This document shows, piece after piece, positions 25,075 to 37,990 of a stretch of 48,309 bases of DNA (positions are counted from its first letter, which is position 1; the number at the start of each line of letters is the position of its first letter). The DNA comes from an uncultured Ignavibacteria bacterium (GTDB taxonomy: Bacteria; Bacteroidota; Ignavibacteria; Kapaibacteriales; UBA2268), in assembly GCA_903862655.1 (NCBI GenBank), contig CAIOZA010000011.1, forward strand, positions 1 through 48,309. The letters run 5' to 3'. The position numbers and the translations under genes were made by a program. Below the pieces are notes generated by a model. It was not told where the DNA came from, did not search any database, and saw nothing but the letters and a program-made list of their open reading frames with translations.

Positions 25075-26184
25075 CTATCTCAAAACGACAAATCTTCTTT
25101 TTTCCATAAAATCATTTCCTCTGATGATTATGTAATAAGTACCGGATTCAAGATTTTGAACATCTATTTGATAATTTAATGCACCTTCAAGTTTGATTTC
25201 GTTTAAACTCATACCAAGTTGATTATAAAGAGAAATAGAATTAATTCTCTTATTCGTAACATTTAGATTAATATTCAAATTTGCGGCTGATGGATTAGGG
25301 AATAATTCAATGGATGACAAAGATTCTGTTTCTTTTACATTAGCTTGAATGTCTAATGGAAGGAAATCAATAATGTTACCCATATAATTAGGAATAATCA
25401 AATAATACGAGCCATCTTCATATATAACACTAATGTCTGCCGGTGCTGAATAGCCTTCAGCAAATACTGCCAAATCCTGACTAGTAGATTTAGGATCCCA
25501 CTCGTATATCTTTCCCTGCTGTTTGTCAAATGACATCACTTGCCAAGCTGATACTAAAAACTTACCATTTGGGAGCTTGACAATACCATCCATATATTTT
25601 ACTTTAGGATCAACAACTGTCTTCATTATTTGTGCAGTAGCCAGATCAAGAGTAACAATTGCACCGGGATCGGTATATTCGACATAAACTAATTGATTTG
25701 TTTCTTTGTCATACAAAATCCCGTTTGGAGAATTTACATTATCTTGAATATTAAGAACCTCAACAGCCTGAGTCTTAGGTGTATACTTATATATAACCAA
25801 TGCCTGAGTGTCTGTAATATAGAGGTGTCCGCTGCTATCAGAACAAATATCATTGAGCATTAATGCATTTTCTAATGGTAGATTAAGATCCAGCTCTTTG
25901 GTTGTCAAATTATACCCTTTTAGACTGGATCCGTCAGCAACAAATAGCATTCCATCATAAATTAGAAGCCCTCGTGGTGAAATTAATCCACTTGCAAAAA
26001 ATGATAATTTAGACTCTAAATCCATTGTTAGTATCTGTTTTCCGGCTTTACTAGATACATAAAACGTTTTGTTCGCGCTATCATAAGCAGTACTTTCAGG
26101 ATAGTTTAATGCTTGACTGTAACTATTGATGGAATAGAAAGCAATAATTATAACTATTGATAAAATTAGTCTGAAATTAAACAT
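25075..26184 (-). CDS. T9SS-exported SMP-30/NHL-like beta-propeller protein
   Basis: The 369-residue product has a signal peptide (FYSINSYSQA), then about 260 residues of propeller blades of SMP-30/gluconolactonase type. These include YPESTAYDSANKTFYVSSK, GLISPRGLLIYDGMLFVAD, DICSDSSGHLYITDT and VNSPNGILYDKETN. The last ~80 residues (SSIELFPNPSAANLNINL to MEKRRFVVLR) form a type IX sorting domain. It should be a surface protein. No enzymatic residues can be confirmed. Short repeats lie on both sides. The 369-bp gap upstream (26185-26553) holds only the second repeat copy. Confidence 0.85.
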   Translation of the reverse strand: MFNFRLILSIVIIIAFYSINSYSQALNYPESTAYDSANKTFYVSSKAGKQILTMDLESKLSFFASGLISPRGLLIYDGMLFVADGSSLKGYNLTTKELDLNLPLENALMLNDICSDSSGHLYITDTQALVIYKYTPKTQAVEVLNIQDNVNSPNGILYDKETNQLVYVEYTDPGAIVTLDLATAQIMKTVVDPKVKYMDGIVKLPNGKFLVSAWQVMSFDKQQGKIYEWDPKSTSQDLAVFAEGYSAPADISVIYEDGSYYLIIPNYMGNIIDFLPLDIQANVKETESLSSIELFPNPSAANLNINLNVTNKRINSISLYNQLGMSLNEIKLEGALNYQIDVQNLESGTYYIIIRGNDFMEKRRFVVLR

Positions 26185-26387
26185 AAAACCTCACTAATAT
26201 TATTGAAACTCAGTTAAAAAATATAATTTACAAAAATTTATGCAATTTCAGACAATTTTTAATTATTTTTTTCTGTTCATTATTTCACTTTATTTCGTTA
26301 TAATAATATCACTATTTTTTATTGTGATACTATCTTTGATTTAACAATTTGCTATAAACGAAGTTCAGGATGGCAGAATAAAATATT

Positions 26388-26451
26388 GATTAGTGTTGGG
26401 AGAGCAGTGATGAGGATATAAAAAGATTCCTGCATTCGCAGGAATGACAGT
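26388..26451. repeat. Short interspersed repeat, copy 2
   Basis: GATTAGTGTTGGG, then AAAAGATTCCTGCATTCGCAGG and AATGACAG; see copy 1 at 24940-25002. The palindrome TTCCTGC/GCAGGAA is complete here. Confidence 0.65.
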
Positions 26452-26553
26452 GCTGAGCAATAATTAGTCAAACAGGGATGTTTGACCTACGTTTACAGCC
26501 AAATACAAAGATGATTGGCCTACGGAGGTAAGATGTTCAGAAATGATCAAGCA

Positions 26554-27501
26554 CTAAAAATCAATTCTGGTGCTGTAAGCTAAACTTAATCCGAATGAAT
26601 TTTTATAACCTAACTGACCGTTGTCGCCGTAATAATATTGGTAAGCCGGCATGTCGAAGAATAAGTTGACAACAAAATCTCCGATAGAGTATCGGATAAT
26701 CGGAGATAGAATCAGACTTGACATTCCAGATTCCTTTAACTCTTCGCTTTTGCCAGGGGAATAATCAAAATCCTTTAGACGTGTTTCATTTCTTGCTTCC
26801 AATCCAACCATGAAATTCTCAAATACACTGCTGACAAACATTAGAGATGTTCTGAAAGAATTCCCATACTTGTAATCATAATTATTTTTATAGTTTATAT
26901 CAGTTCTGTGCGACAGGATTAATCCACTATTGATTGATGAGAAAATCTTTTTTCCAACAACTGTGAATATTGTAGCATAGGCTCCGGTTGAAGCCAGAAT
27001 GTTCTGTGGAATATAAACAGAGCCGGTGGATAATGGAATTTTGACACCAACTCCACCCGAAAAGTCCCATCCATTCTCGGGGTCTTTGAAGAATGTGTAT
27101 CTTGAATAAAATGATAAATCGGAAAAACCATTTGAAGATTGCTTTCCGCCGAGATCAATCATTGTTTTATTGACAAAGTAGCCTAATTCGGTTTCAATCA
27201 TTAATTTACTAATTGGTTTATAGCCGACCCTCATGCTTAAGAAGTTGGACTTGTAATCCTTGATTGTTCCCTCACCTTTTGGAATATCCCTAACCATGTA
27301 AGTATCGGCAAAACCATAACTATTATTCAAACTAACGAACAGATTGTCTCCAACGAATGAATTAACGTTTGATAATTCGCTGAGTGAAACAGTACCAAAT
27401 GTGCTGGAATTCCCCGGGCATCCACATTGTGCGGATAAGAATTGAGAATGGCATATAAACCCGACCAATGCTAAAAAGGCAATATTAACAAAATTTTTCA
27501 T
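26554..27501 (-). CDS. Outer-membrane beta-barrel protein at the end of the fibre cluster
   Basis: The 315-residue product has a signal peptide cleaved near FLSA, then QCGCPGNSS and amphipathic strands (LFVSLNNSYGFADT, FLSMRVGYKPISKLMIETELGYF, SFRTSLMFVSSV). The C-terminus YSTRIDF has the terminal Phe of barrels. It resembles the MetA/transporter-type barrels often annotated as putative transporters. The N-terminal CGCPG recalls the CPGC of the cluster's subunits and the CAC of the adjacent lipoprotein. It starts 30 bp after the lipoprotein gene, so it belongs to the same operon. Role unknown. Confidence 0.7.
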   Translation of the reverse strand: MKNFVNIAFLALVGFICHSQFLSAQCGCPGNSSTFGTVSLSELSNVNSFVGDNLFVSLNNSYGFADTYMVRDIPKGEGTIKDYKSNFLSMRVGYKPISKLMIETELGYFVNKTMIDLGGKQSSNGFSDLSFYSRYTFFKDPENGWDFSGGVGVKIPLSTGSVYIPQNILASTGAYATIFTVVGKKIFSSINSGLILSHRTDINYKNNYDYKYGNSFRTSLMFVSSVFENFMVGLEARNETRLKDFDYSPGKSEELKESGMSSLILSPIIRYSIGDFVVNLFFDMPAYQYYYGDNGQLGYKNSFGLSLAYSTRIDF

Positions 27502-27531
27502 AGTTTAATTTTTATACATTTTTTTACAAAA

Positions 27532-28065
27532 TCAATTTAAACATTTCAGTAGTGACTCTTCTAATGAAATTTTGGGATTTTTATCTCTAAATACATAAAG
27601 TGAATCGAAAACGGATTCTAATGCGACATTATCTTTCATAATGAAAAGAGCCGGCAAATAGTTAATCTTCAATATGTTAGTGAATGGGTTCTTCATCGCT
27701 GGGTATGTCATTGAATATACTTTGAAGACAGGTTCACTAATTCCTGCATTTTGGAGAATTTTGACTGCTGAAGGAAAGTGTTCCTGAGTGCCAACACAAG
27801 CACATGAAGGATTGACAAAGAGCAAAAAAGTTTTACCGGAATTTTGCAACTTGGCTTTTACCTCGTTAACAACGTTTATATCATAAGTATATTTATCATA
27901 TCCCTTCTGATACCAGGTATAACCCTTAGTTGTCTTTATTTCATCTATTGTCAACTGTTTAGCTTGATCAGTGTCAGGTTCCGCCAACTGTTCGGTGCAG
28001 CTCTGCATGGATAAAAAAGATATAGCTACTAGAGCCAAAGCAATCAATGATTTTATATTATACAT
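27532..28065 (-). CDS. Thioredoxin-like lipoprotein
   Basis: The 177-residue product has a lipobox (SMQSC, Cys at about 23). It has a thioredoxin-like core: TFLLFVNPSCACVGTQEHF in place of the usual WCxxC, then an INYLPALFI strand with the conserved cis-Pro. The active site reads C-A-C, a CxC motif, which in known thiol proteins favours isomerase or reductase chemistry. It should face the periplasm from the outer membrane. It lies 38 bp downstream of the usher gene; the putative subunits are rich in Cys, so a role in their disulfides is a reasonable inference. The SD is AGGAG. Confidence 0.72.
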   Translation of the reverse strand: MYNIKSLIALALVAISFLSMQSCTEQLAEPDTDQAKQLTIDEIKTTKGYTWYQKGYDKYTYDINVVNEVKAKLQNSGKTFLLFVNPSCACVGTQEHFPSAVKILQNAGISEPVFKVYSMTYPAMKNPFTNILKINYLPALFIMKDNVALESVFDSLYVFRDKNPKISLEESLLKCLN

Positions 28066-28103
28066 AACAATACTCCTTATTATTTTAAGTGGAAATTTCT
28101 TTT

Positions 28104-31100
28104 TTATTTCTCAATAACTTTTAAATCAACTCTTCTGTTTTTCGCTCTTCCGGTTGTTGACATATTATCCGATATTGGCAATAAAGCACCATGACCGGTA
28201 GACAACAGCCTATCCTTCTTTATTCCCTTACGGGATAAATAATTGACAACTTCACTGGCTCTATTATTTGATACAGCCATGTTTTCATCAGGTGTACCAA
28301 AATTGTCGGAATGACCATCAATTTGAAGTTTTGCTACGGAATTTTTTTGAAGATAAGCAGCGACTTTGTCAAGCTCTTTTTGCATTGGAAGAGTCAGATA
28401 TGTCATCTTTGATGTTTTGTATGACAAGGAATTCTGCATCTTAACAATTCCATCATCTTTAGAAGAAATCTCTGTAGAATCGATACGAATTACATCTTTC
28501 TTACTAAGCTCATTCTGAACAACTAGATTAGAATCTTTTTGAATAAAATTCGCCAGATAACTGCTAGCTTTATCGATTGGAGTTTGATCCGGGTTAGAAG
28601 TCGAAGCAGTTATAACTTTCTTAGAGTCAACTTGTTTTTCTGGAGCCAAACCTGGTACGTTGTTCAATAAAGTAAAGTTGAGATTACTAACAAGGTCACC
28701 AGTTGAAGTCTTTTTTATAGTGAATTGTATCGACTTTGGTTCGGAATGAACATTCAGAACATCCATTTGTAATGAGTCCACAGTAGCAGTATAATCTCCC
28801 GGTGGAACTCCCATATAATAATAATTACCGTCTGCAAACACAGAAACCTCTTGGTTCCATGAACTATCTATTTTTACAATCTGAATCTTAATCCCGGCTT
28901 GCCCATGCTTTTCATTGCCATTATCCCTTATGACACCGCCTTCGATGATACCGGCTGAATAACATGGCACATCTATCGGTTTGTAGGAATTGGGATCGGC
29001 AATGAACGAGAATTCTGATGCTGTAGGCGTCCAAAGAGGATTCTTGAATGATTCTTTATCGACAACAAGGTTATATTTGCCATATGCCACCAGATTATGT
29101 ACTCTGCTTAATGTATTATTAGAATTTTTTGAAATAGTTATATTTCTAATATTGAAGTTAACATCTGGAATAACTACTTCTCCATCAGTATATTCTCCAT
29201 CTTCATTTTCATCAAGAAAAAATCTTACAGATAAAGCTCCCATTCCTACACTGTTTAACATTCCATCAGTTTTAAGAAATAATTCATTTTGATATGAGTC
29301 GAAAGCAAGTGTTGACTGTATTCCTTGACTAATGGAGCCTCTATGAGGATTAAAATTAGCATTTGTGTTTGATCTTAAAGAAGGGAGATTAAGCAGAACT
29401 CCTAATGAAAAATTTGGCTCTTTCATTATAAAATTATAATCAACACTCAATCTTACATTAGTTGATTGTCCAATTAATTTGTCGGTAAAAAATTGTAAAT
29501 TCTGGAATCTTCTATTTGTTATGTCTAAAAGACTTGCGACTCCAATTCTACAGCTATTAAGAAATTCCCATGCACCTTTCAAGCTGTATGTGGTATAAGT
29601 CAGGTTAAAACTCATTGATTGAAAATTTGAATGAAAATTCCCATTTCTCTCTTCATAACTGGATCGATACATTGCATTTAGGAATAGAGAATTATAACTT
29701 GTATTAAAATTTGCTACAATATTATAATCATTTAAACTCGCTAACTGGTTCCGAGATAATTGAATTGATGTTCCAAATGGAACATAAGTGAAACGTGGTA
29801 AACCGAATGACAACAATGCCTTATTTTTCAATGTCTTAGCTAATATTCCATCATATTGAATAAAGCTAAAATTCACTCCTCCCAGATTTTCAGATTGAGT
29901 GGAAAAAGATGCTCTGTAATAATTTTTTGGAGAAATATCTATGTTGGTCAATAATCCATTATAAATTCTTAGCCCAATATGATCAACAAATGAAATTGAG
30001 TCTGAACCCAAAATTTTAGTTACTAATACTGAATTTGTTAAAAATCCAGTTATTCCAGTAGATATTCTGGCAGTAGTTAATATTTCATTACTGTTTGATT
30101 TTTGACCACCTGTAATCGCATAACGAACTTCACCAGGTCTAAGAAACTCTGAAGGTATATTCAGAAAATCCTTTTTACTTATTACTTCTCCCTTTGGTCC
30201 ATAATATCTTAATTCTATAGTGGTAAAACCAAAACTTACAGGTAAATCAAACCTGAAGTAACCTGTCATATCACACTGTTTTTGTCCGTAAAGCTGATTA
30301 TTAATCCATAACTCTACCTGCCATTCAGGATTTATTTTATCTTCTATTATTATAGTTGAAAAATATTGGTTCTTCATCGAAGGATCATTCGAAATCTGAA
30401 CTCCAGTCAAAGCAGAAGATGGTAAAGAATTACTTAGAAAGCCACCTGTAGATACCAATCCTGCAGAAAATTGCGATAAATATGGATTTTCACTTATGAA
30501 ATATCTCCATCTATAATTATATAAATGTACATTTAATTTTGTTCTTTCATCATAATATCCATTTGCCGAGGCTGAAAGGTCACCACCAAAAATTTCTATG
30601 CCAGAATTAAGATTATAGCTATAATATCTGTTACGTGGATTTAATGTTTGTGTAGCATTAAGACTATAATCTAACATTCCTCCATTTAGTAAACTCCTTT
30701 TTCTGTCAAATAACAAAGGTCCATAGTTTAAAAAATTATTTGACGATAAAGACATATTCTTATAATTACCATTTCTTTTAGCTTGAGCAAGGAGTGGTAG
30801 ATCTATCTTTGAATCTACTCGAACTTCAAGATCTGAGTAATTTGTCTTAATATTAATTCCAAAAATATTAGATAATACTTCTGGTTTCATATAAATCTCT
30901 AAGTCAGTTAGGAAATATTGATCTGATGCTATCGCTGTAACTCTATCATTATAGATAGCTTTACCTTCAGATAAACTTATATGATACAACGAATCTGTTT
31001 TAACAAAGAATCCTGAAATACTCTTACCACTATTTTCTAACCTGTTATCAATACCTAATGCAGTTAAAAAAGAAGTTGTTGGAATGTATAATTCATTTTT

Positions 31101-31274
31101 ATAAATAACTGCATTAATATTTGTTCTTACAACATTTGAATATCTCAATAAAAATATACCTTCTTCTGCGTCATTGGGAAGATGTGAAATGATTATCTGA
31201 GCTTTAGTATCAACTAATATAAATAAGATCAGAAGGAGTAAAATTACAAAGTATTTGGGATTTATTTTAGTCAT
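28104..31274 (-). CDS. Divergent chaperone-usher outer-membrane usher fused to an OmpA domain
   Basis: The start is the ATG at 31274 (TTG 31280 is in frame). The ~1056-residue protein has a signal peptide (to about 26) and an N-terminal domain ending SDLEVRVDSKIDLPLLAQAKR. A long barrel region follows, with a plug-like segment (GFTTIELRYYGPKGEVISKK, RPGEVRYAITGG). C-terminal beta domains read VRFFLDENEDGEYTDGEVV, as in archaic CsuD-type ushers, and AGIKIQIVKI. Residues ~955-1056 are an OmpA/MotB domain (LQIDGHSDNFG, NNRASEVVNYLSRKGI, NRRVDLKV). Ushers secrete and assemble fibre subunits; an OmpA domain would tie the pore to peptidoglycan, which standard ushers lack. The PapD-like gene upstream supports the call. 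The barrel is recognised by pattern, not by alignment. Confidence 0.72.
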   Translation of the reverse strand: MTKINPKYFVILLLLILFILVDTKAQIIISHLPNDAEEGIFLLRYSNVVRTNINAVIYKNELYIPTTSFLTALGIDNRLENSGKSISGFFVKTDSLYHISLSEGKAIYNDRVTAIASDQYFLTDLEIYMKPEVLSNIFGINIKTNYSDLEVRVDSKIDLPLLAQAKRNGNYKNMSLSSNNFLNYGPLLFDRKRSLLNGGMLDYSLNATQTLNPRNRYYSYNLNSGIEIFGGDLSASANGYYDERTKLNVHLYNYRWRYFISENPYLSQFSAGLVSTGGFLSNSLPSSALTGVQISNDPSMKNQYFSTIIIEDKINPEWQVELWINNQLYGQKQCDMTGYFRFDLPVSFGFTTIELRYYGPKGEVISKKDFLNIPSEFLRPGEVRYAITGGQKSNSNEILTTARISTGITGFLTNSVLVTKILGSDSISFVDHIGLRIYNGLLTNIDISPKNYYRASFSTQSENLGGVNFSFIQYDGILAKTLKNKALLSFGLPRFTYVPFGTSIQLSRNQLASLNDYNIVANFNTSYNSLFLNAMYRSSYEERNGNFHSNFQSMSFNLTYTTYSLKGAWEFLNSCRIGVASLLDITNRRFQNLQFFTDKLIGQSTNVRLSVDYNFIMKEPNFSLGVLLNLPSLRSNTNANFNPHRGSISQGIQSTLAFDSYQNELFLKTDGMLNSVGMGALSVRFFLDENEDGEYTDGEVVIPDVNFNIRNITISKNSNNTLSRVHNLVAYGKYNLVVDKESFKNPLWTPTASEFSFIADPNSYKPIDVPCYSAGIIEGGVIRDNGNEKHGQAGIKIQIVKIDSSWNQEVSVFADGNYYYMGVPPGDYTATVDSLQMDVLNVHSEPKSIQFTIKKTSTGDLVSNLNFTLLNNVPGLAPEKQVDSKKVITASTSNPDQTPIDKASSYLANFIQKDSNLVVQNELSKKDVIRIDSTEISSKDDGIVKMQNSLSYKTSKMTYLTLPMQKELDKVAAYLQKNSVAKLQIDGHSDNFGTPDENMAVSNNRASEVVNYLSRKGIKKDRLLSTGHGALLPISDNMSTTGRAKNRRVDLKVIEK

Positions 31275-31347
31275 TTTCAATATTTATTTTTTTATTCCTA
31301 CGTTTGTTAGTTTCTAATTTTAAAATTCAGTATAATTTAAAAAATTA

Positions 31348-32175
31348 TTATGGTAACATAAATTCAAATCTTTTAGTTAACGGTGCTACTTTGATTGTCT
31401 TTTCCTCTGGAATGTCTGACCTAAGAGTGTTGACAGTTATCTCTGCAGTATAAAACCCGGGTTTAAATTTTGTTTTTTTGCTGCTAATATAGAAACTTTT
31501 CTGAGTATTTGTGTAAACTCCGAAATGCTCACTTAGCGTATCTACCACCATTCCCTGTGTATCAAATATTGAAATTTTGGCTTTACCCCAATATGGCGAA
31601 TTCCCTTCTTTTTCCATACCAAATGTAAGTTTAAGACTATTTGTATCCAAAGCAGAATTCATATTTGTTAGATTAAGGGCGGTAGTTAGCTTCCCTTTCT
31701 GATAAATTACCATTGAAATAATTCCAGTTTTAAGAACCATATTCATAGATATATTCTTTTTATCTGAAGTATCAATTTGTTTACCAACTGGCTGCGAAAC
31801 GAAAGTAATTTTTGAAGTATACGTTCCATCGTGTATATCAGGAGGATGCATAACAAGAAATCTAACCATCTGATCCTTTTTTGGTTGAACTACCAACCTT
31901 TTAGGAAAAACCTTCAAATATTTCAGTAAAGAATGCTTTGCTTCAATTAAGCTGTCAGTTGAATTTTTAATAACAAAAATTGAATCTAGGGAGTTATAAC
32001 TGAATGATACATTAATATCAATTTCCATTGGAACATCAGAACCATTTACAACCCGGATGTATCCAGAACGACTAATAGGGTCAATAAAAACTAAGTTTGG
32101 ATAAACAGTTACTTGTGAATTGGAAATATTCCAAAAAATTGGGATTAAAACCAATATTATGAATATTTTTTTCAT
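31348..32175 (-). CDS. PapD-like periplasmic fibre chaperone
   Basis: The 275-residue product has a signal peptide and two Ig-like domains. The first reads VTVYPNLVFIDPISRSGYIRVVNGSDVPMEI and then LKYLKVFPKRLVVQPKKDQMVRFLV. It has the order of PapD-type chaperones: strand A1, the 'IxNxs' strand, then 'fP..~~l.P...q.vRv'. The second domain (TALNLTNMNSAL to KTIKVAPLTKRFEFMLP) ends in a long basic strand. It would bind fibre subunits in the periplasm by donor-strand complementation and hand them to the usher, which is the next gene. It is slightly longer than usual (~230-250). Confidence 0.75.
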   Translation of the reverse strand: MKKIFIILVLIPIFWNISNSQVTVYPNLVFIDPISRSGYIRVVNGSDVPMEIDINVSFSYNSLDSIFVIKNSTDSLIEAKHSLLKYLKVFPKRLVVQPKKDQMVRFLVMHPPDIHDGTYTSKITFVSQPVGKQIDTSDKKNISMNMVLKTGIISMVIYQKGKLTTALNLTNMNSALDTNSLKLTFGMEKEGNSPYWGKAKISIFDTQGMVVDTLSEHFGVYTNTQKSFYISSKKTKFKPGFYTAEITVNTLRSDIPEEKTIKVAPLTKRFEFMLP

Positions 32176-32231
32176 ATTTCTTTACTCTGATATAATTAAC
32201 TAAAATTAGACGATCTTTTTAAACTTAATAT

Positions 32232-33509
32232 TTATTTACAATTTGATTCAATCATGTTAAAACCATCAACAAATCCAAGGTCTCTTGCGATTTTCCATTC
32301 CATACATGCCCCATCTGAGTCTCCAATATTATAATATGCATGACCAGCTTTATAGTGTGCGTTTGTATGCTTAGCATCTATTCTAATTACTTTTTTAAAA
32401 TCTTCTAATGCTTCTTTATATTCTTTCAAATCCAATTTCAACTCGCCTCTTTCCATCAAAGCACCGGTATGAGTCGAATCAATTCTTAATGTTTCATTGA
32501 AATCATCAATTGCTCCAGAATATAATTCATTTTGCTTTTTGACTATCCCTCTATTATAATAGGCATCCGAAAAATCATTTTTTAATGTAATTGCTTTTGA
32601 AAAACTTTCAAGTGATTGTTGAAAATTCTCAATACTATGGTAAACAATTCCTCTGACAAAATATCCTTCTGCAAAATTAGGCTTTTTATAAATTACAAAA
32701 TTTACGTCATCTAATGCTCCACGATAATCTTGGATTTCCTGCCTGATCAAAGCTCTTGTAAAATATGCATCAATATAATCACCTTTTATTTTAATAGTCT
32801 TATCAAGATCTGCCAAAGCATCCGGGTAGTTTTTCATCTGTCTTTTTGTAATTGCACGATTATAAAAAGCATCAGCATAATCAGACTTGATAGTTATTGC
32901 ATTATTAAAATCTGCTAAAGAACCGTTATTATCTTTAAGTTTTTGCTTTACAAGCCCTCTGTTGTATATTGCATCAAGATAATTGTCTCTGTGACTTATA
33001 GCAGAATCCAAATCAGCAAGAGAACCTTTCAAATCATTAATGTAATTTTTTGATATTCCGCGTATAAAATATGCTACTGGTAATCCCGGTTTAACATTAA
33101 TAGCTCTATTACAATCTTCAATAGCTTCATCATATTTAAAACCATAATATTTAACTAACGCTCTTTGTAAATATGCATCTGTATAATCCGGTTTAATTTT
33201 AATAAGAGCTGAATAATCTGCAATAGCATCATCATAAGCACCAAGATAATATTTTGATAATCCTCTCATTGCTAATGCATCAATATATATTGGATTAATT
33301 CTTAATGCTTCATCAAATTCATCAATCGCTTCATAATAATTTCCAGTTTCACCTTTTGACATTCCTTTTTTAAAATGTTCTTCCGCAGGACTTGAAAGTT
33401 CTGAAATACCTTGAATAGGCAATTTATTATCTGGTATTTCAGCGTTGATAATTGAAATGAATGAGGTAAAGATAAATACAAGAAGTGCTAATTTTGATAT
33501 ATTTTTCAT
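32232..33509 (-). CDS. Secreted TPR-repeat protein in the fibre operon
   Basis: The 425-residue product has a signal peptide (to about 23) and about eleven 34-residue tetratricopeptide repeats from residue ~42 to ~415. They are regular: GNYYEAIDEFDEALRINP, then GAYDDAIADYSALIKIKP and so on. A C-terminal GACMEWKIARDLGFVDG helix closes the array. TPRs are protein-binding scaffolds. Placed between the subunits and the chaperone, this one could sort or hold subunits or dock on the usher. The SD is GGAG. No classical chaperone-usher operon known to me carries such a gene. Confidence 0.88.
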   Translation of the reverse strand: MKNISKLALLVFIFTSFISIINAEIPDNKLPIQGISELSSPAEEHFKKGMSKGETGNYYEAIDEFDEALRINPIYIDALAMRGLSKYYLGAYDDAIADYSALIKIKPDYTDAYLQRALVKYYGFKYDEAIEDCNRAINVKPGLPVAYFIRGISKNYINDLKGSLADLDSAISHRDNYLDAIYNRGLVKQKLKDNNGSLADFNNAITIKSDYADAFYNRAITKRQMKNYPDALADLDKTIKIKGDYIDAYFTRALIRQEIQDYRGALDDVNFVIYKKPNFAEGYFVRGIVYHSIENFQQSLESFSKAITLKNDFSDAYYNRGIVKKQNELYSGAIDDFNETLRIDSTHTGALMERGELKLDLKEYKEALEDFKKVIRIDAKHTNAHYKAGHAYYNIGDSDGACMEWKIARDLGFVDGFNMIESNCK

Positions 33510-33551
33510 ATTAAATTCTCCATTAAACCTTAAGATTAAAAAGACAAGCTA

Positions 33552-34115
33552 TCAACTACCCTTGCTACTATGGTGGTCTTCATCATAACTATCATAGCAT
33601 GAAACAGTAACAGTAAAACCACAATCCAAATTACAAGTACCTTGAGTACTAGGAATTTGTAATCCCGTTACACATACCCTGAATCTAACCATATTATTTC
33701 CATCATGACAATCAGAACTTGATCCTTTAATGTTAAAAATATTATTTATATGCCCAGAACAAGAAGTTGGATTTTTACAATTGTTAAATTGTTTCCATTC
33801 TCCTGAAAGATCATCTTGATATGTCCACACCCAATCAAGATTTAAGCTTGCTGAATTCGATGGATTAGAAAAGAATACCTGAAAATTCTGATCTGACTGA
33901 TTTGTAGTAACAACCCATTCCAGACAATAACTTTCTGTTGAAAATATTTTCGGGCAACCAGGGCAAACTGATGCTACAGCAATTGTTTGAGGCAGTGATA
34001 TTTCAAGATTTTTTTTATTATTCTTATCATTAGATAATACACCTTGAGCCTGACAAGTATTTAAATCGGCTATAAGCATTAACGCTGGAATAAAAAATAT
34101 AAAAAAAGACTTCAT
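33552..34115 (-). CDS. Putative Cys-rich fibre subunit C
   Basis: The start is the ATG at 34115, where the signal peptide begins (MKSFFIFFIPALML); the longer frame from 34148 is unlikely. The ~187-residue product has the pattern shared by the three subunit-like genes: IAVASVCPGCPKIF, a Trp-containing strand (YCLEWVVTTNQ), WTYQDDLSGEWKQF, several further Cys, RFRVCVTG, and a penultimate strand CGFTVTVSCYD. A hydrophilic tail DEDHHSSKGS follows. It is the last subunit gene before the TPR protein and may be a tip or minor subunit. The assignment rests on pattern and operon context. Confidence 0.6.
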   Translation of the reverse strand: MKSFFIFFIPALMLIADLNTCQAQGVLSNDKNNKKNLEISLPQTIAVASVCPGCPKIFSTESYCLEWVVTTNQSDQNFQVFFSNPSNSASLNLDWVWTYQDDLSGEWKQFNNCKNPTSCSGHINNIFNIKGSSSDCHDGNNMVRFRVCVTGLQIPSTQGTCNLDCGFTVTVSCYDSYDEDHHSSKGS

Positions 34116-34175
34116 ATTTAACTCGACTGTACCAAATTTATAATTCATCAGATTTAATTATAATCATTTTTTAAT

Positions 34176-34236
34176 ACCAATAAAAAATTTACCAACGACT
34201 CTCCAAAGTCATCCCAGCTCTGGAGGGTCGAGGTAA
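34176..34236 (-). terminator. Terminator or attenuator between subunit genes B and C
   Basis: TTACC, CGAC and CTCCA on one arm (34189-34206) pair with TGGAG, GTCG and GGTAA on the other (34221-34236), with two single mismatches. On the minus strand the stem is followed by AATTTTTTATTGG. It would reduce transcription of subunit C and the assembly genes. Confidence 0.65.
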
Positions 34237-34247
34237 TGTTTTGCCAA

Positions 34248-34820
34248 CTAAAGTGGGCAAGTTGGGCAAGGATCTTCTTCAATTTGAACAAATCCACATA
34301 CGTAGTTTACTGTTGCTGTTACACAAAAGCAATAAACACCAGATGCATTGCAATTTGAAGTTTGTGATGTCAGGTAATACCTGAAAGCACCAAATCCATG
34401 ACCATTATTGTTAAAGAAATTTCTGGGATTTTCATCTTGCCTCGGTTCCCATATTCCCTGAGCATTTAACTGATACCAGCAACCTATAAGTGATGCATTG
34501 GCATCTCCTGTACAACGTCTAATCCTGCCTCCATTAAAATCGTAAAGACATTCGAGCGAACCAGTTACATCCCACTGAATATAAGGACCTTGTCCGCAAC
34601 TCCAGCTTCTGCCGCATCCGGGGCAAAGATTATCTAATACAGGATTTATCGCTACTATAGTAATTGCAGGTTCAACATCAAAATTGAAATGAGCCGAAGA
34701 ATTGGCTGCACAATTACTTGATCCAACATCTACTGCATTAGCATTACCATAGTTCAAGAGAAGTATAAATATTGACACAACGCTGTATGTCACCAATTTA
34801 ATTTTATTTCTCATTTTCAT
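34248..34820 (-). CDS. Putative Cys-rich fibre subunit B
   Basis: The 190-residue product has a signal peptide (ending NANAVDVG). The mature part begins SNCAANSSAHFNFDVEPAI and continues with LDNLCPGCGRSW, IQWDVTGSLECLYDF, GCWYQLNAQGIWEP and CFCVTATVNYVCGF. It ends with an acidic Cys-containing tail (EEDPCPTCPL). The N-terminal xCxxxxxxxFxFxVExAI and the CPGC motif line up with subunit A. It carries about thirteen Cys in the mature chain, unusually many for a pilin-like protein. Confidence 0.6.
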   Translation of the reverse strand: MKMRNKIKLVTYSVVSIFILLLNYGNANAVDVGSSNCAANSSAHFNFDVEPAITIVAINPVLDNLCPGCGRSWSCGQGPYIQWDVTGSLECLYDFNGGRIRRCTGDANASLIGCWYQLNAQGIWEPRQDENPRNFFNNNGHGFGAFRYYLTSQTSNCNASGVYCFCVTATVNYVCGFVQIEEDPCPTCPL

Positions 34821-34849
34821 TCTCTCTAAATAAAGATTTTTTTATGTTC

Positions 34850-34916
34850 TCTTAAAAATTAAGATGTATCTCCGATTTACAATCTAATGCAATCAAATTG
34901 TTTCAGAGATACATCT
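34850..34916 (-). terminator. Attenuator-like hairpin between subunit genes A and B
   Basis: AGATGTATCTC (34862-34872) and GAGATACATCT (34906-34916) form a perfect 11-bp stem with a 33-nt loop. On the minus strand TTAATTTTTAAG follows. A stem-loop after the first subunit gene is typical of pilus operons, where it protects or ends the abundant major-subunit mRNA. Confidence 0.6.
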
Positions 34917-34982
34917 ATTAAATAATTTCAAATAACTATTTCGAATAATTCTTAATAATTATTAAAGTAATTATTAATTTTA

Positions 34983-35534
34983 TTAGAGTGCACAAGTATA
35001 ATCAACTGTAAGTGTGTATGAGAAAGAATATGGTGCTGGAGTTGTATTGCAATCTACTGCAACATTACCTACACAGATACGGAATTTTGTAGGATCATTT
35101 GCGGTATTTGAATAATGTGCATTATTGTTGACAAAGAAATAACCACCTGCTTGGTCTGGATGACTCGTCATTCCAATAAAGTTTCCAGATGCTAAACCTT
35201 CCCAAGGACCGGTATCGTCAGAATATTGCCAAGTTGAAATAACAGATATTCCTGCTGGAAGTGATCCTAAAGTATTTGATGTAGAAGCATTAAATTTACA
35301 ATCTGCTCCACCTGTTACTGTCCAAGTAGCACATTTGTCAGTAAATTCTTTGTTGCAGCCTGGGCAAATTCCGCCTAATTCAAAAGTTTGGGCGCCACCG
35401 GTTAAACCAATTGCTGCTTCTACTGTGAAAGTAAAAGTACCTGTTGCTGTAGCGGAACAATTGCTACCTTGTTGTGCCTGTGCTGCGAATGCTGTGAAAA
35501 GCATTACAACTGCGATTGCTAATAAATTTTTCAT
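34983..35534 (-). CDS. Putative major Cys-rich fibre subunit A
   Basis: The start is the ATG at 35534, with AGGAG 6 nt upstream and the signal peptide MKNLLAIAVVMLFTAFAAQA beginning there; the frame from 35615 is an overextension. The ~183-residue product begins QQGSNCSATATGTFTFTVEAAI, an alternating strand suited to donor-strand exchange. Next come LGGICPGCNKEF, WTVTGGADCKF, STWQYSDDTGPWEG, FRICVG and a terminal strand FSYTLTVDYTCAL. Codon use is GC-richer than the rest of the cluster and the SD is strong, both signs of high expression. It is first in the operon and followed by a stem-loop, as major pilins are. Confidence 0.65.
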   Translation of the reverse strand: MKNLLAIAVVMLFTAFAAQAQQGSNCSATATGTFTFTVEAAIGLTGGAQTFELGGICPGCNKEFTDKCATWTVTGGADCKFNASTSNTLGSLPAGISVISTWQYSDDTGPWEGLASGNFIGMTSHPDQAGGYFFVNNNAHYSNTANDPTKFRICVGNVAVDCNTTPAPYSFSYTLTVDYTCAL

Positions 35535-35740
35535 GGAAAACTCCTGATATATATTTGTTAAAAATATTTTTGTTAAAAAAGAGTGCATTTGAATATTGAA
35601 ACTTTGGAAAACCACACACTTATTTTTAGATAATCCTCAATTTCATATTCCATATTCTTACAAATAATACCAACTAGATTTGTACTATATAATATAATGT
35701 TTCAAATATCGTCGATAAAATTTGTCTAGCGACACTGCTT

Positions 35741-35807
35741 AAGCCCCGAACGGATCCTAACATCCCAAAAGGGCTTTTGTGGCATTTACCACATCCAAAG
35801 TGGCTTA
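35741..35807 (-). promoter_or_regulatory. Structured element with two exclusive folds upstream of the fibre operon
   Basis: TAAGCC (35741-35746) can pair with GGCTTA (35802-35807), enclosing the hairpins CCC-AAAA-GGG (35764-35773) and TGTGG/CCACA (35778-35793). Alternatively AAGCCC (35742-35747) can pair with GGGCTT (35771-35776). The two pairings exclude each other. On the minus strand it would lie in a long leader of the fibre operon. The rest of 35535-36201 has no gene; 35548-35570 carries TTTGTTAAAAA twice. Confidence 0.4.
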
Positions 35808-36072
35808 GTCTCTGCGAATCTGCCGTCAACAATTCTATTTAATATTCTAATGCGTGCACTCATTTGATTATCTTATAAATTTGCTTTTTGCTATCCGCTG
35901 TCTTATATGTCAATTTTACAATAAGGTCTTTTATTTCGATTATCATGAAGATTAAATTATTGAACTTAATATCTTCTAATAATCATTTGGATTCTGTTTT
36001 TGATTTCTAAAACTTTTCTCAAAGAACGACATCATTTTCTTGGTACAAACATACGACAATCAGATACTGTTA

Positions 36073-36137
36073 ATCAATACCATCAAAACGGTATTTTGCA
36101 AAAATACCATCAACTACGTAGTGGCTACGTATTCCAA
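36073..36137. promoter_or_regulatory. Cluster of ATACCA motifs and palindromes downstream of the receiver gene
   Basis: ATACCATCA, then GGTATTTT-GCA-AAAATACC (36090-36108) and CTACGTAG occur here. CAAAAATA at 36099-36106 is a minus-strand TATTTTTG, a possible -7 element pointing toward the fibre operon. AATACCAT, ATCAACTA(C/A)GTA and GGAATACGT also occur at 36759-36834. Confidence 0.4.
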
Positions 36138-36201
36138 TGTATGGTTTTGAGCAACAACAACAATTATGATTCGATCTATTCATGTGTTTCGTAAATGATT
36201 T

Positions 36202-36681
36202 CTAATGTTGAATATTAAAAAAGGACTCTAGTACTTTAGTTTTGATCTTACTACCAAGTTGAGTTTCGAATGATGTTGAGCCTGAATATGCAATTTTTAC
36301 AGCTTCTGAAATTTTATGATGATCAGCATCCTTGGTGATGTAGCCACAAGCACCTAATTTAATAAGTTTTGAAAGTGATGATGAATCACTGTCAAAATCA
36401 CTATAAATAATCACTTTCAATTGAGGATAGGTTTCTCTAAAGAAATTCATTGTTTCTTCAGCCTCAAACCCTGGGAGTTCTATATCAAGTAATAATATAT
36501 CAGCATTCCAGTTTGATAGATATTGTTTAATTTCTATCTCGCTTTCTGCGTTTCCTAGATATTGGATATCTCCATTTTTTGATAGTAATATTTTTAAGTA
36601 CTTTGCACTCAACACATAGTTTTCTGCCGTTAGAACCTTGATGGGCTTTACATTATCACTATTAGTTGTGATGTTGATCAT
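36202..36681 (-). CDS. Receiver-only response regulator with altered acidic pocket
   Basis: The 159-residue product is a CheY-like receiver of the NarL/FixJ type (phospho-acceptor Asp in ILLLDIELPGF, Lys in YITKDAD). It stops before any helix-turn-helix. The usual acidic DD pair is replaced by Glu-Asn in KVLTAENYV, so magnesium binding and phosphorylation may be weak or different. The conserved Thr/Ser position reads S in VIIYSDF. It is divergent from the NarL-type regulator at 37253 and on the same strand as the fibre cluster, about 670 bp upstream of subunit A. It could act as a phosphate sink or protein-binding regulator for the kinase at 38078. Confidence 0.85.
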   Translation of the reverse strand: MINITTNSDNVKPIKVLTAENYVLSAKYLKILLSKNGDIQYLGNAESEIEIKQYLSNWNADILLLDIELPGFEAEETMNFFRETYPQLKVIIYSDFDSDSSSLSKLIKLGACGYITKDADHHKISEAVKIAYSGSTSFETQLGSKIKTKVLESFFNIQH

Positions 36682-37252: not shown

Positions 37253-37990
37253 ATGGAACAAGTTGTGAATATTTTAATAGCAGATGACCATCTTTTATTC
37301 GCAAAATTGCTGAAACATGAACTGAATTCAGAGCCTGGTTTCAACGTTGTTGGTATTCTTGACAATGGTCCTGATATTATTGAGACAATTGAACGAGACA
37401 ATGTCGATGTACTTTTGCTTGACATCCATTTGAACCAATCCAATGGGATTGCAATTCTTGAGGAAATCAGAGGGATTCATCCTAAACTAAAAATAATAAT
37501 GCAAACATTTGAAACTGGCGGAGCAATTGTCAAAAAAGTAATTGAACTAGGAGCAAATGGATTTATCACAAAATTCTCAGACAGCGATGACATCAAAAAG
37601 TCTATACATGCGGTTCTCAAGGGTGAAACTTACCTGTGCAAACTGAGTTATGACAACCTGATGACAACAATGAACCAAGGAATAATAAATAATAGCAGAA
37701 ATTCAACACCGAGTAAAATGAACTCACAAATGCTGAGTTATGATAAAATTTCAGACATGGGATTTGATGATAACAAGCAGCAATCATCGGAATTACTATC
37801 AGAAAGAGAAAAGGAAATTCTTAAATTGATAGTGAAAGATAAATCGTCAAAGGCTATAGCCGACGATCTTTCAATTAGCTATCGGACAGTGGAAACGCAT
37901 AGGAGAAATATATTCAGGAAACTTGGCGTTAGAAATTCATTAACCCTGATGAAAAGAATAATTGAATTAGACTTGAGATTTGAAGCGTAA
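37253..37990 (+). CDS. NarL/FixJ-family response regulator
   Basis: The 245-residue product has a complete receiver (ILIADDH, Asp in VLLLDIHLNQSNG, Lys in FITKFS). A linker of ~45 residues rich in Ser/Asn/Met follows, then a LuxR-type helix-turn-helix (LLSEREKEILKLIVKDKSS, KAIADDLSISYRTVETHRRN, IFRKLGV). It starts with an AGGA SD. The PAS histidine kinase 87 bp downstream on the same strand is the obvious partner. The repeated ATACCA motifs on both sides of the neighbouring receiver gene are candidate binding sites. Confidence 0.93.
   Translation: MEQVVNILIADDHLLFAKLLKHELNSEPGFNVVGILDNGPDIIETIERDNVDVLLLDIHLNQSNGIAILEEIRGIHPKLKIIMQTFETGGAIVKKVIELGANGFITKFSDSDDIKKSIHAVLKGETYLCKLSYDNLMTTMNQGIINNSRNSTPSKMNSQMLSYDKISDMGFDDNKQQSSELLSEREKEILKLIVKDKSSKAIADDLSISYRTVETHRRNIFRKLGVRNSLTLMKRIIELDLRFEA

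Follow-up and report, generated by a model that had tools for sequence, protein, structure and literature searches.

Donor-strand exchange has been described for both the archaic and the classical chaperone-usher systems (PMC4654587 and PMC9452303, in the parts available to us). Archaic systems are reported beyond Beta- and Gammaproteobacteria in the accessible sections of PMC4654587, PMC9452303 and PMC10104325, and those of the first and the last name proteobacteria, cyanobacteria and Deinococcota as the groups that have archaic chaperone-usher pili. In Pseudomonas, an usher with a fused translocator domain has been described, according to the accessible portion of PMC4793230. We analysed a 48,309-nucleotide stretch of DNA (hereafter the window) from an uncultured Ignavibacteria bacterium (assembly GCA_903862655.1, contig CAIOZA010000011.1), which is one complete contig of a genome of 4.07 Mb in 148 contigs. 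Positions 26554-35534 hold eight consecutive open reading frames, all on the minus strand and separated by intergenic gaps of 30-162 bases; a first-pass annotation had placed eight genes there, and a check of the reading frames of the window bore this out. The same annotation had taken them for a divergent chaperone-usher system. Our results support that view: the cluster is probably a remote chaperone-usher system, of a kind that we name DUF4402-type, and most likely builds a thin adhesive or biofilm-matrix fibre. Support comes from profile matches of the usher and the chaperone, and from the Pfam domain DUF4402, which 25 of 59 family subunits match (E <= 0.1, best E 6.7e-28). The gene order, subunits followed by chaperone and usher, is that of the DUF4402-type group.

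The putative names of the usher-like outer membrane protein (28104..31274, minus strand, 1056 amino acids) and of the PapD-like periplasmic chaperone (31348..32175, minus strand, 275 amino acids) come from profile and family evidence, the window chaperone and the usher core having no significant Pfam or NCBIfam match for these functions; the same holds for the thioredoxin-like lipoprotein described below. A profile of the usher core aligned in hhalign with six E. coli K-12 ushers at 97.7% (alignment A1), over 514 columns covering the barrel and the plug region, and a larger usher alignment (A7) did so at 98.4%; reversed and column-permuted controls gave 0.0-1.9%. Compared singly, the profile matched FimD at 72.2%, a Pantoea usher at 74.7%, FhuA at 0.1% and BamA at 0.2%. 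Residues about 302-382 (30129..30371, minus strand) align in hhalign with the plug of FimD, and would form the usher plug. The Pfam Usher model was matched by 3 of 35 family ushers (E <= 0.1, best E 7.2e-7). The usher of a Balneolaceae genome (L066) exceeds the cut-off of this model, the matched stretch being 248-426, and used as a tblastn query against plasmids it found a Pantoea ananatis usher at E 6e-4. Further along the window usher, residues 781-838 (28761..28934, minus strand) form a CarboxypepD_reg-like domain (Pfam E 0.0014, under the cut-off), and such a domain occurs in 27 of the 35 family ushers (Pfam E <= 0.1). Residues 49-148 are weakly like Cu_amine_oxidN1 (E 0.089; 5 of the 35 relatives, best E 2.3e-5); FimD has PapC_N there.

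The family profile of the chaperone aligned with eight K-12 chaperones at 92.4% (hhalign) over 92 columns of domain 1, the reversed and permuted controls giving 0.1-0.4%. Taken singly, EcpB reached 50.7%, EcpE 15.2% and Skp 0.3%. PapD_N was matched by 8 of 33 family chaperones (E <= 0.1, best E 0.0027). The same genome holds four usher paralogues, on contigs C69 (63% identical), C27, C92 and C97, each accompanied by a chaperone paralogue; on C97 one DUF4402 gene lies between the two. The C97 chaperone (L039, 6606-7478) is the single PapD_N match of this genome (E 0.0078) and has EYRSH, most others having GxYWxR; a motif similar to EYRSH is known from archaic chaperones. Pro91 is invariant in the family (33/33) and aligned with the Pro-Pro of FimC in the profile comparison; the available text of PMC4654587 gives a proline as the sole residue invariant across the chaperone superfamily. 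The two genes also travel together: for 60 of the 61 usher matches of at least 310 bits, a chaperone match lies no more than 2.5 kb upstream, in the same orientation, in a count that took these 61 matches and the 65 best chaperone matches.

The first three genes of the cluster encode small secreted proteins, all on the minus strand: S1 (34983..35534, 183 amino acids, 8 Cys), the candidate main fibre subunit, S2 (34248..34820, 190 amino acids, 13 Cys) and S3 (33552..34148, 198 amino acids, 11 Cys). The common CPGC/Trp pattern that had been read in them is real, since their alignment with the C69 subunit has 14 invariant columns, which include CPGC, three Trp, a Val, a Gly and an F-R pair; their description as Cys-rich subunits was likewise upheld. 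The mature parts of S1-S3 and the C69 subunit carry 7, 13, 10 and 8 Cys, the automatic signal cleavage having left S1 one Cys short. These are the four highest counts among 59 subunits (alignment A9, picked by eye: 58 of 86 candidates and one from the 21 mapped loci), the next being 6. Judged by sequence comparison, S1 belongs with the other subunits of the family. Against a profile of neighbour subunits built without S1 it scored 59.5 bits (E 6e-17; none of 500 shuffles reached this, best 21.0), and its mature part scored 41.4 bits (none of 1000 shuffles, best 11.3). S3 is 41% identical to the C69 subunit. The subunit profile aligned with 19 K-12 pilins at 52% over just 32 C-terminal columns (controls 0.0-0.7%). 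Its matches in the PDB were not significant; the best was the pilin FimG (E 0.027), FimG or CsuE made up 7 of the 21 matches listed, and the second row was an unrelated transporter (E 0.028). Within this genome, four DUF4402 matches fall within two of the five usher copies.

Several results weigh against this interpretation. No window protein reached an Usher, PapD or pilin model of Pfam or NCBIfam, and neither Pfam Usher nor PapD_N was found above cut-off at any place in 60 related genomes. FimD has both PapC_N and PapC_C, whereas the window usher matched neither at E <= 10, and both were absent among the 25 listed of the 28 families matched by 35 relative ushers. The core-usher profile matched nothing among PDB sequences (the full usher profile found OmpA-type domains, in the best 60 of 82 matches) and reached 0.5% only with the alternative usher EcpC. 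As for the chaperone, domain 2 was unmatched to the K-12 chaperones by profile, FimC alone gave 1.2%, and no chaperone was found in the PDB. S1-S3 had no DUF4402 match at E <= 10, and S2 and S3 appear tied only weakly to the other subunits. Against the subunit profile S2 scored a weak 15.0 bits (none of 500 shuffles as high), and its mature part 7.1 bits (E 1.5; none of 1000 shuffles reached this, an unrelated chaperone protein scored 4.9); S3 scored 12.9 bits (none of 500 shuffles as high, best 9.6), and its mature part 13.9 bits (E 0.012). Both outscored every one of their shuffles, though by a narrow margin, and both have C-terminal tails past the last strand-like stretch. The alternating N-terminal strand was non-discriminating, being present in 29 of 59 subunits versus 18.2 expected, but in 41 of 59 at an internal control stretch. 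Finally, no tip adhesin was recognised.

Three accessory genes complete the cluster, all on the minus strand. Between S3 and the chaperone lies a gene for a TPR protein (32232..33509, 425 amino acids, with a signal-peptide-like start; Pfam TPR_1 E 5.5e-46, eight stretches), also present in the C69 copy. The usher is followed by a thioredoxin-like lipoprotein with a CxC at C88 and C90 (27532..28065; weak match to Pfam bacilliredoxin, E 0.013, and no significant Pfam, NCBIfam or PDB match) and by a barrel-like outer membrane protein (26554..27501; weak match to Pfam Phenol_MetA_deg, E 0.0047, below the cut-off) that is 73% identical to its C69 counterpart. What sets this genome apart is that two of its five copies have Cys-rich subunits, and that both of these copies include a TPR gene, a CxC lipoprotein gene and a barrel gene. 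Within the class, 5 of 391 genomes match the profile of the four Cys-rich subunits, with the four outside places at E 1e-4 to 4e-4 only, one of them (G004) being a subunit that adjoins a chaperone (L040); S3 alone, searched in the 60 related genomes, matched two places broken by stops (E about 0.005) besides this genome. The C69 copy may be short of further subunits, because its contig ends about 370 bases before the one that is visible; the C27 usher copy sits at a contig end.

Among the 21 mapped loci (29 loci from a scan of species genomes lie outside this count), the TPR, lipoprotein and barrel genes adjoin only the window and C69 copies. These loci, both copies being of a single genome, do not support the view of the first-pass annotation that thiol and TPR helpers are part of the type. 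Elsewhere, TPR forms the tail of other ushers, or a separate gene after an operon of Pseudoalteromonas. The lipoprotein family has its CxC in all 13 distinct sequences aligned (the window, C69 and the best loci of 11 other genomes) and a conserved (L/I)-P further along. It seems unlikely, though worth keeping in mind, that the lipoprotein and the barrel protein are bystanders and that the functional operon ends at the usher. Lipoprotein relatives do occur in 55 of the 60 related genomes and, among the matches listed, lie beside an usher nowhere but in this genome's two copies, and barrel relatives occur in 21 of the 60, away from ushers except in these two copies and in L048 (genome G020), where one lies about 6 kb from the usher. 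Yet the same order is kept in both Cys-rich copies, with no other usher of the mapped loci adjoined; the gaps are only 38 and 30 bases, and two terminator-like hairpins (26487-26466 and 26445-26426, minus strand, consensus match only) follow the barrel gene. Terminator-like sites number 7 in 26100-36300, against 3.7 in shuffles. A third CxC lipoprotein copy of this genome lies on contig C86 (14056-14532), which has no listed usher. Because a thiol protein is found with the Cys-rich copies, these observations, made on two related copies in one genome, suggest a role of the lipoprotein in subunit disulphides.

In a fibre assembled by this cluster, S1-S3 would be exported by Sec and then held by the periplasmic chaperone through donor-strand complementation. 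The complexes would dock on the usher, whose plugged barrel would pass the subunits outward while the N-terminal strand of each subunit replaces the chaperone strand of the preceding one. The CxC lipoprotein may make, shuffle or remove subunit disulphides before export, the TPR protein probably serves as a scaffold in the periplasm, and the OmpA tail would tie the usher to peptidoglycan and so anchor the fibre to the wall. The plug, the immunoglobulin-like folds and donor-strand exchange are predictions from sequence in this scheme. The same machine could instead yield a protein coat, a capsule-like layer or a matrix sheet from short subunit oligomers, with no pilus. We regard this as unlikely, more so than the bystander role just considered. 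The evidence for the machinery is the same as for a fibre, the lack of a recognised tip adhesin and the small subunits, two with C-terminal tails, would suit a coat, and five different subunits preceding one chaperone (L049) would fit a mixed coat and a fibre equally well. Sequence does not separate the two, but a wall-anchored usher would fit a load-bearing fibre better. An ordinary OmpA-tailed outer membrane barrel with an immunoglobulin-fold PapD-like partner, forming an export or adhesin system without donor-strand exchange, would account for the missing direct usher, chaperone, PapC_N and PapC_C matches and for the weak Fn3-like, WxLIP and Cep192 matches of the chaperone family, which are unspecific to pilus chaperones, but it is highly improbable given 0.1-0.2% for FhuA and BamA where FimD reaches 72%, the chaperone upstream of all but one of the strong usher matches, and Pseudomonadota relatives annotated as fimbrial or molecular chaperones beside DUF4402.

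As had been proposed, the usher ends in an OmpA-like peptidoglycan-binding domain (residues 960-1047; 28134..28397, minus strand; Pfam PF00691, E 3.5e-17), clear in Pfam and with NCBIfam and PDB matches as well. It has the Asp of HSDNFG and the Arg of NNRA, the residues that bind peptidoglycan in such domains. OmpA, SPOR and LysM domains all bind peptidoglycan. By Pfam, the tails among 35 family ushers are OmpA in 18, SPOR in 2, LysM in 1 and TPR in 2; a tail scan of 37 ushers out of 40, at loci that partly overlap the 35 (L077, L115 and L121 were left out as short), gave SPOR in 17, TPR_2 in 11, OmpA in 3 and LysM in 1. OmpA is therefore one of several alternative peptidoglycan-binding tails of these ushers. 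In a tree of 59 ushers, 18 OmpA rows including the window (with two duplicate pairs, L049/L106 and L050/L107) form one clade with a support of 99. A Bacteroidales OmpA usher (L063) falls in a different well-supported clade, which implies at least two gains of the domain or else frequent losses. The tree was made by a quick method and has several long branches; it omits L052, L077, L115, L121, L128 and L130-L134, many of its 'none' tail labels predate the later tail scan, and the OmpA label of L057 comes from aligned length.

Relatives of the system are widely distributed. Usher relatives were found in Kapabacteria, Ignavibacteria, Balneolales, Bacteroidales and other records of the Bacteroidota group. 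All 60 related genomes match the usher, mostly by the OmpA domain alone, and at least 14 of them have the usher core. Of the 21 mapped loci, window included, 20 hold both usher and chaperone, the usher of the 21st being truncated by the contig end; the scan of species genomes gave 29 loci, some on contigs already mapped. Across the phylum, 89 of 395 genomes and 33 of 171 genera match the usher profile (E <= 1e-10, some matches being partial and weak), 57 of the 395 genomes reach at least 310 bits, and the chaperone profile matches 109 (E <= 1e-5). Per-genome counts are lower bounds, as each search scores a limited number of candidates per genome; in the 395-genome usher search this number is two, and it lists 2 of the 5 ushers of this genome. 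The Balneolaceae isolate ANBcel3 has two clusters (L066 and L077), alike by eye, on two contigs.

Searches of plasmids with chaperone, subunit and two usher queries retrieved Polaromonas, Novosphingobium, Sphingopyxis and Pseudoalteromonas; the chaperone and usher queries each yielded 5 to 7 records, the subunit query 1. In Polaromonas and Sphingopyxis the order is DUF4402, chaperone and a carboxypeptidase (regulatory-like) domain protein, with an intervening hypothetical gene in Polaromonas, and the chaperones are annotated as 'fimbria/pilus periplasmic chaperone' or 'molecular chaperone'. The Sphingopyxis usher-like protein matches the usher profile at 99.9% (hhalign). The chaperone of Pseudoalteromonas xiamenensis, annotated as hypothetical, matches PapD_N at E 7e-5, and its operon contains or adjoins genes for SPOR proteins and for a TPR protein. 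In Pseudoalteromonas sp. Bsw20308 the usher is annotated as 'SdrD B-like', with hypothetical proteins beside it; the Novosphingobium THN1 record is unannotated. Since plasmids of Alpha-, Beta- and Gammaproteobacteria carry close relatives, as DUF4402-chaperone-usher operons, the system is not the dedicated type of the Fibrobacteres-Chlorobi-Bacteroidetes (FCB) group that had been supposed.

We found no description of this branch in the open-access literature, as far as its texts were available (most subscription papers and all preprints lie outside this scope). The broadest view of the data is one that we put forward tentatively, as plausible but somewhat short of probable. It holds that there is a whole branch of chaperone-usher systems, widespread among Bacteroidota and present in Pseudomonadota too, in which the ushers bring peptidoglycan anchors of their own (OmpA, with two or more gains, SPOR and LysM), and that a fibre with many disulphide links evolved here, together with a CxC lipoprotein oxidoreductase dedicated to it within the operon. 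If the cluster is indeed a chaperone-usher system, 89 of the 395 sampled genomes of the phylum (57 at 310 bits or more) would carry a system that annotation can miss, because the ushers of the annotated plasmid relatives are named only for a small domain of carboxypeptidase-like or SdrD-like type. With ushers that have OmpA, SPOR or LysM fused to them, the anchoring of a pilus against pulling force would become directly testable. The Cys-rich copy, which has a thiol lipoprotein of its own, would offer a model of fibres locked by disulphides.

The surroundings of the cluster add several observations. A Bacteroidota promoter motif (TTTG-N17-21-TANNTTTG) occurs 4 times in the window, where 2.5 would be expected, but never before S1, and the number of sigma-70-like sites is that of chance (61 against 53.8). 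Genes that by eye resemble response regulators adjoin the cluster at 36202-36681 (minus strand) and 37253-37990 (plus strand). Similar ones lie near the usher clusters of L041, L046, L050, L053, L065 and L067, and a LuxR-type regulator occurs in Polaromonas; this may point to common control of these usher systems. Downstream, 25075-26184 (minus strand) encodes an SMP-30/NHL-like protein with a type IX secretion system sorting domain (Por_Secre_tail, E 2.7e-10). A role of that secretion system was considered and set aside, as this neighbour lies 369 bases away, beyond the terminator-like hairpins.

Compared with known systems, the archaic (sigma) ones, such as Csu of Acinetobacter and CupE of Pseudomonas, have the same kinds of parts. 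Archaic pilins are of the spore coat U type, whereas in this comparison, made via Pfam and papers only, none of the 59 subunits matched that family (PF05229, E <= 0.1). The CupE1 pilin has one conserved disulphide, according to the available part of PMC10104325, against 8-13 Cys in S1-S3. The likeness to the classical FimA-FimC-FimD system lies in the usher barrel and plug region and in chaperone domain 1 (with the profile of eight); the differences are the undetected PapC_N and PapC_C, the OmpA tail, the remote subunits and the lack of a match to FimC alone. Because PapC_N and PapC_C were undetected and none of the subunits matched spore coat U, we class the cluster as neither classical nor archaic. 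Of the alternative systems (CFA/I, Ecp), the usher is unlike EcpC, while the chaperone is nearer to EcpB than to FimC. The Mfa1/FimA fimbriae of Porphyromonas are Bacteroidota surface fibres for which a donor-strand mechanism has been proposed; the accessible part of PMC4789730, a paper of 2016, says that neither ushers nor fimbrial chaperones had been reported for them, and describes cleavage of their precursors by signal peptidase II and gingipain. The gene order is alike in Polaromonas sp. JS666 plasmid 2 (NC_007950.1) and Polaromonas sp. E5S pE5SP1. The JS666 usher-like protein matches the usher profile at 100% over 799 columns, its 'fimbria/pilus periplasmic chaperone' matches the chaperone profile at 99.2% and passes the PapD_N cut-off (25.3 versus 23 bits), and the E5S chaperone reaches 98.9%. 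The annotated subunits of these operons are DUF4402 or hypothetical proteins, and the operons are without an annotated TPR, thioredoxin-like or barrel gene; unlike the window usher, the Polaromonas usher has no OmpA match. YiaD- and Pal-type anchors share the C-terminal OmpA domain with the window usher, where it is fused to an usher-like protein.

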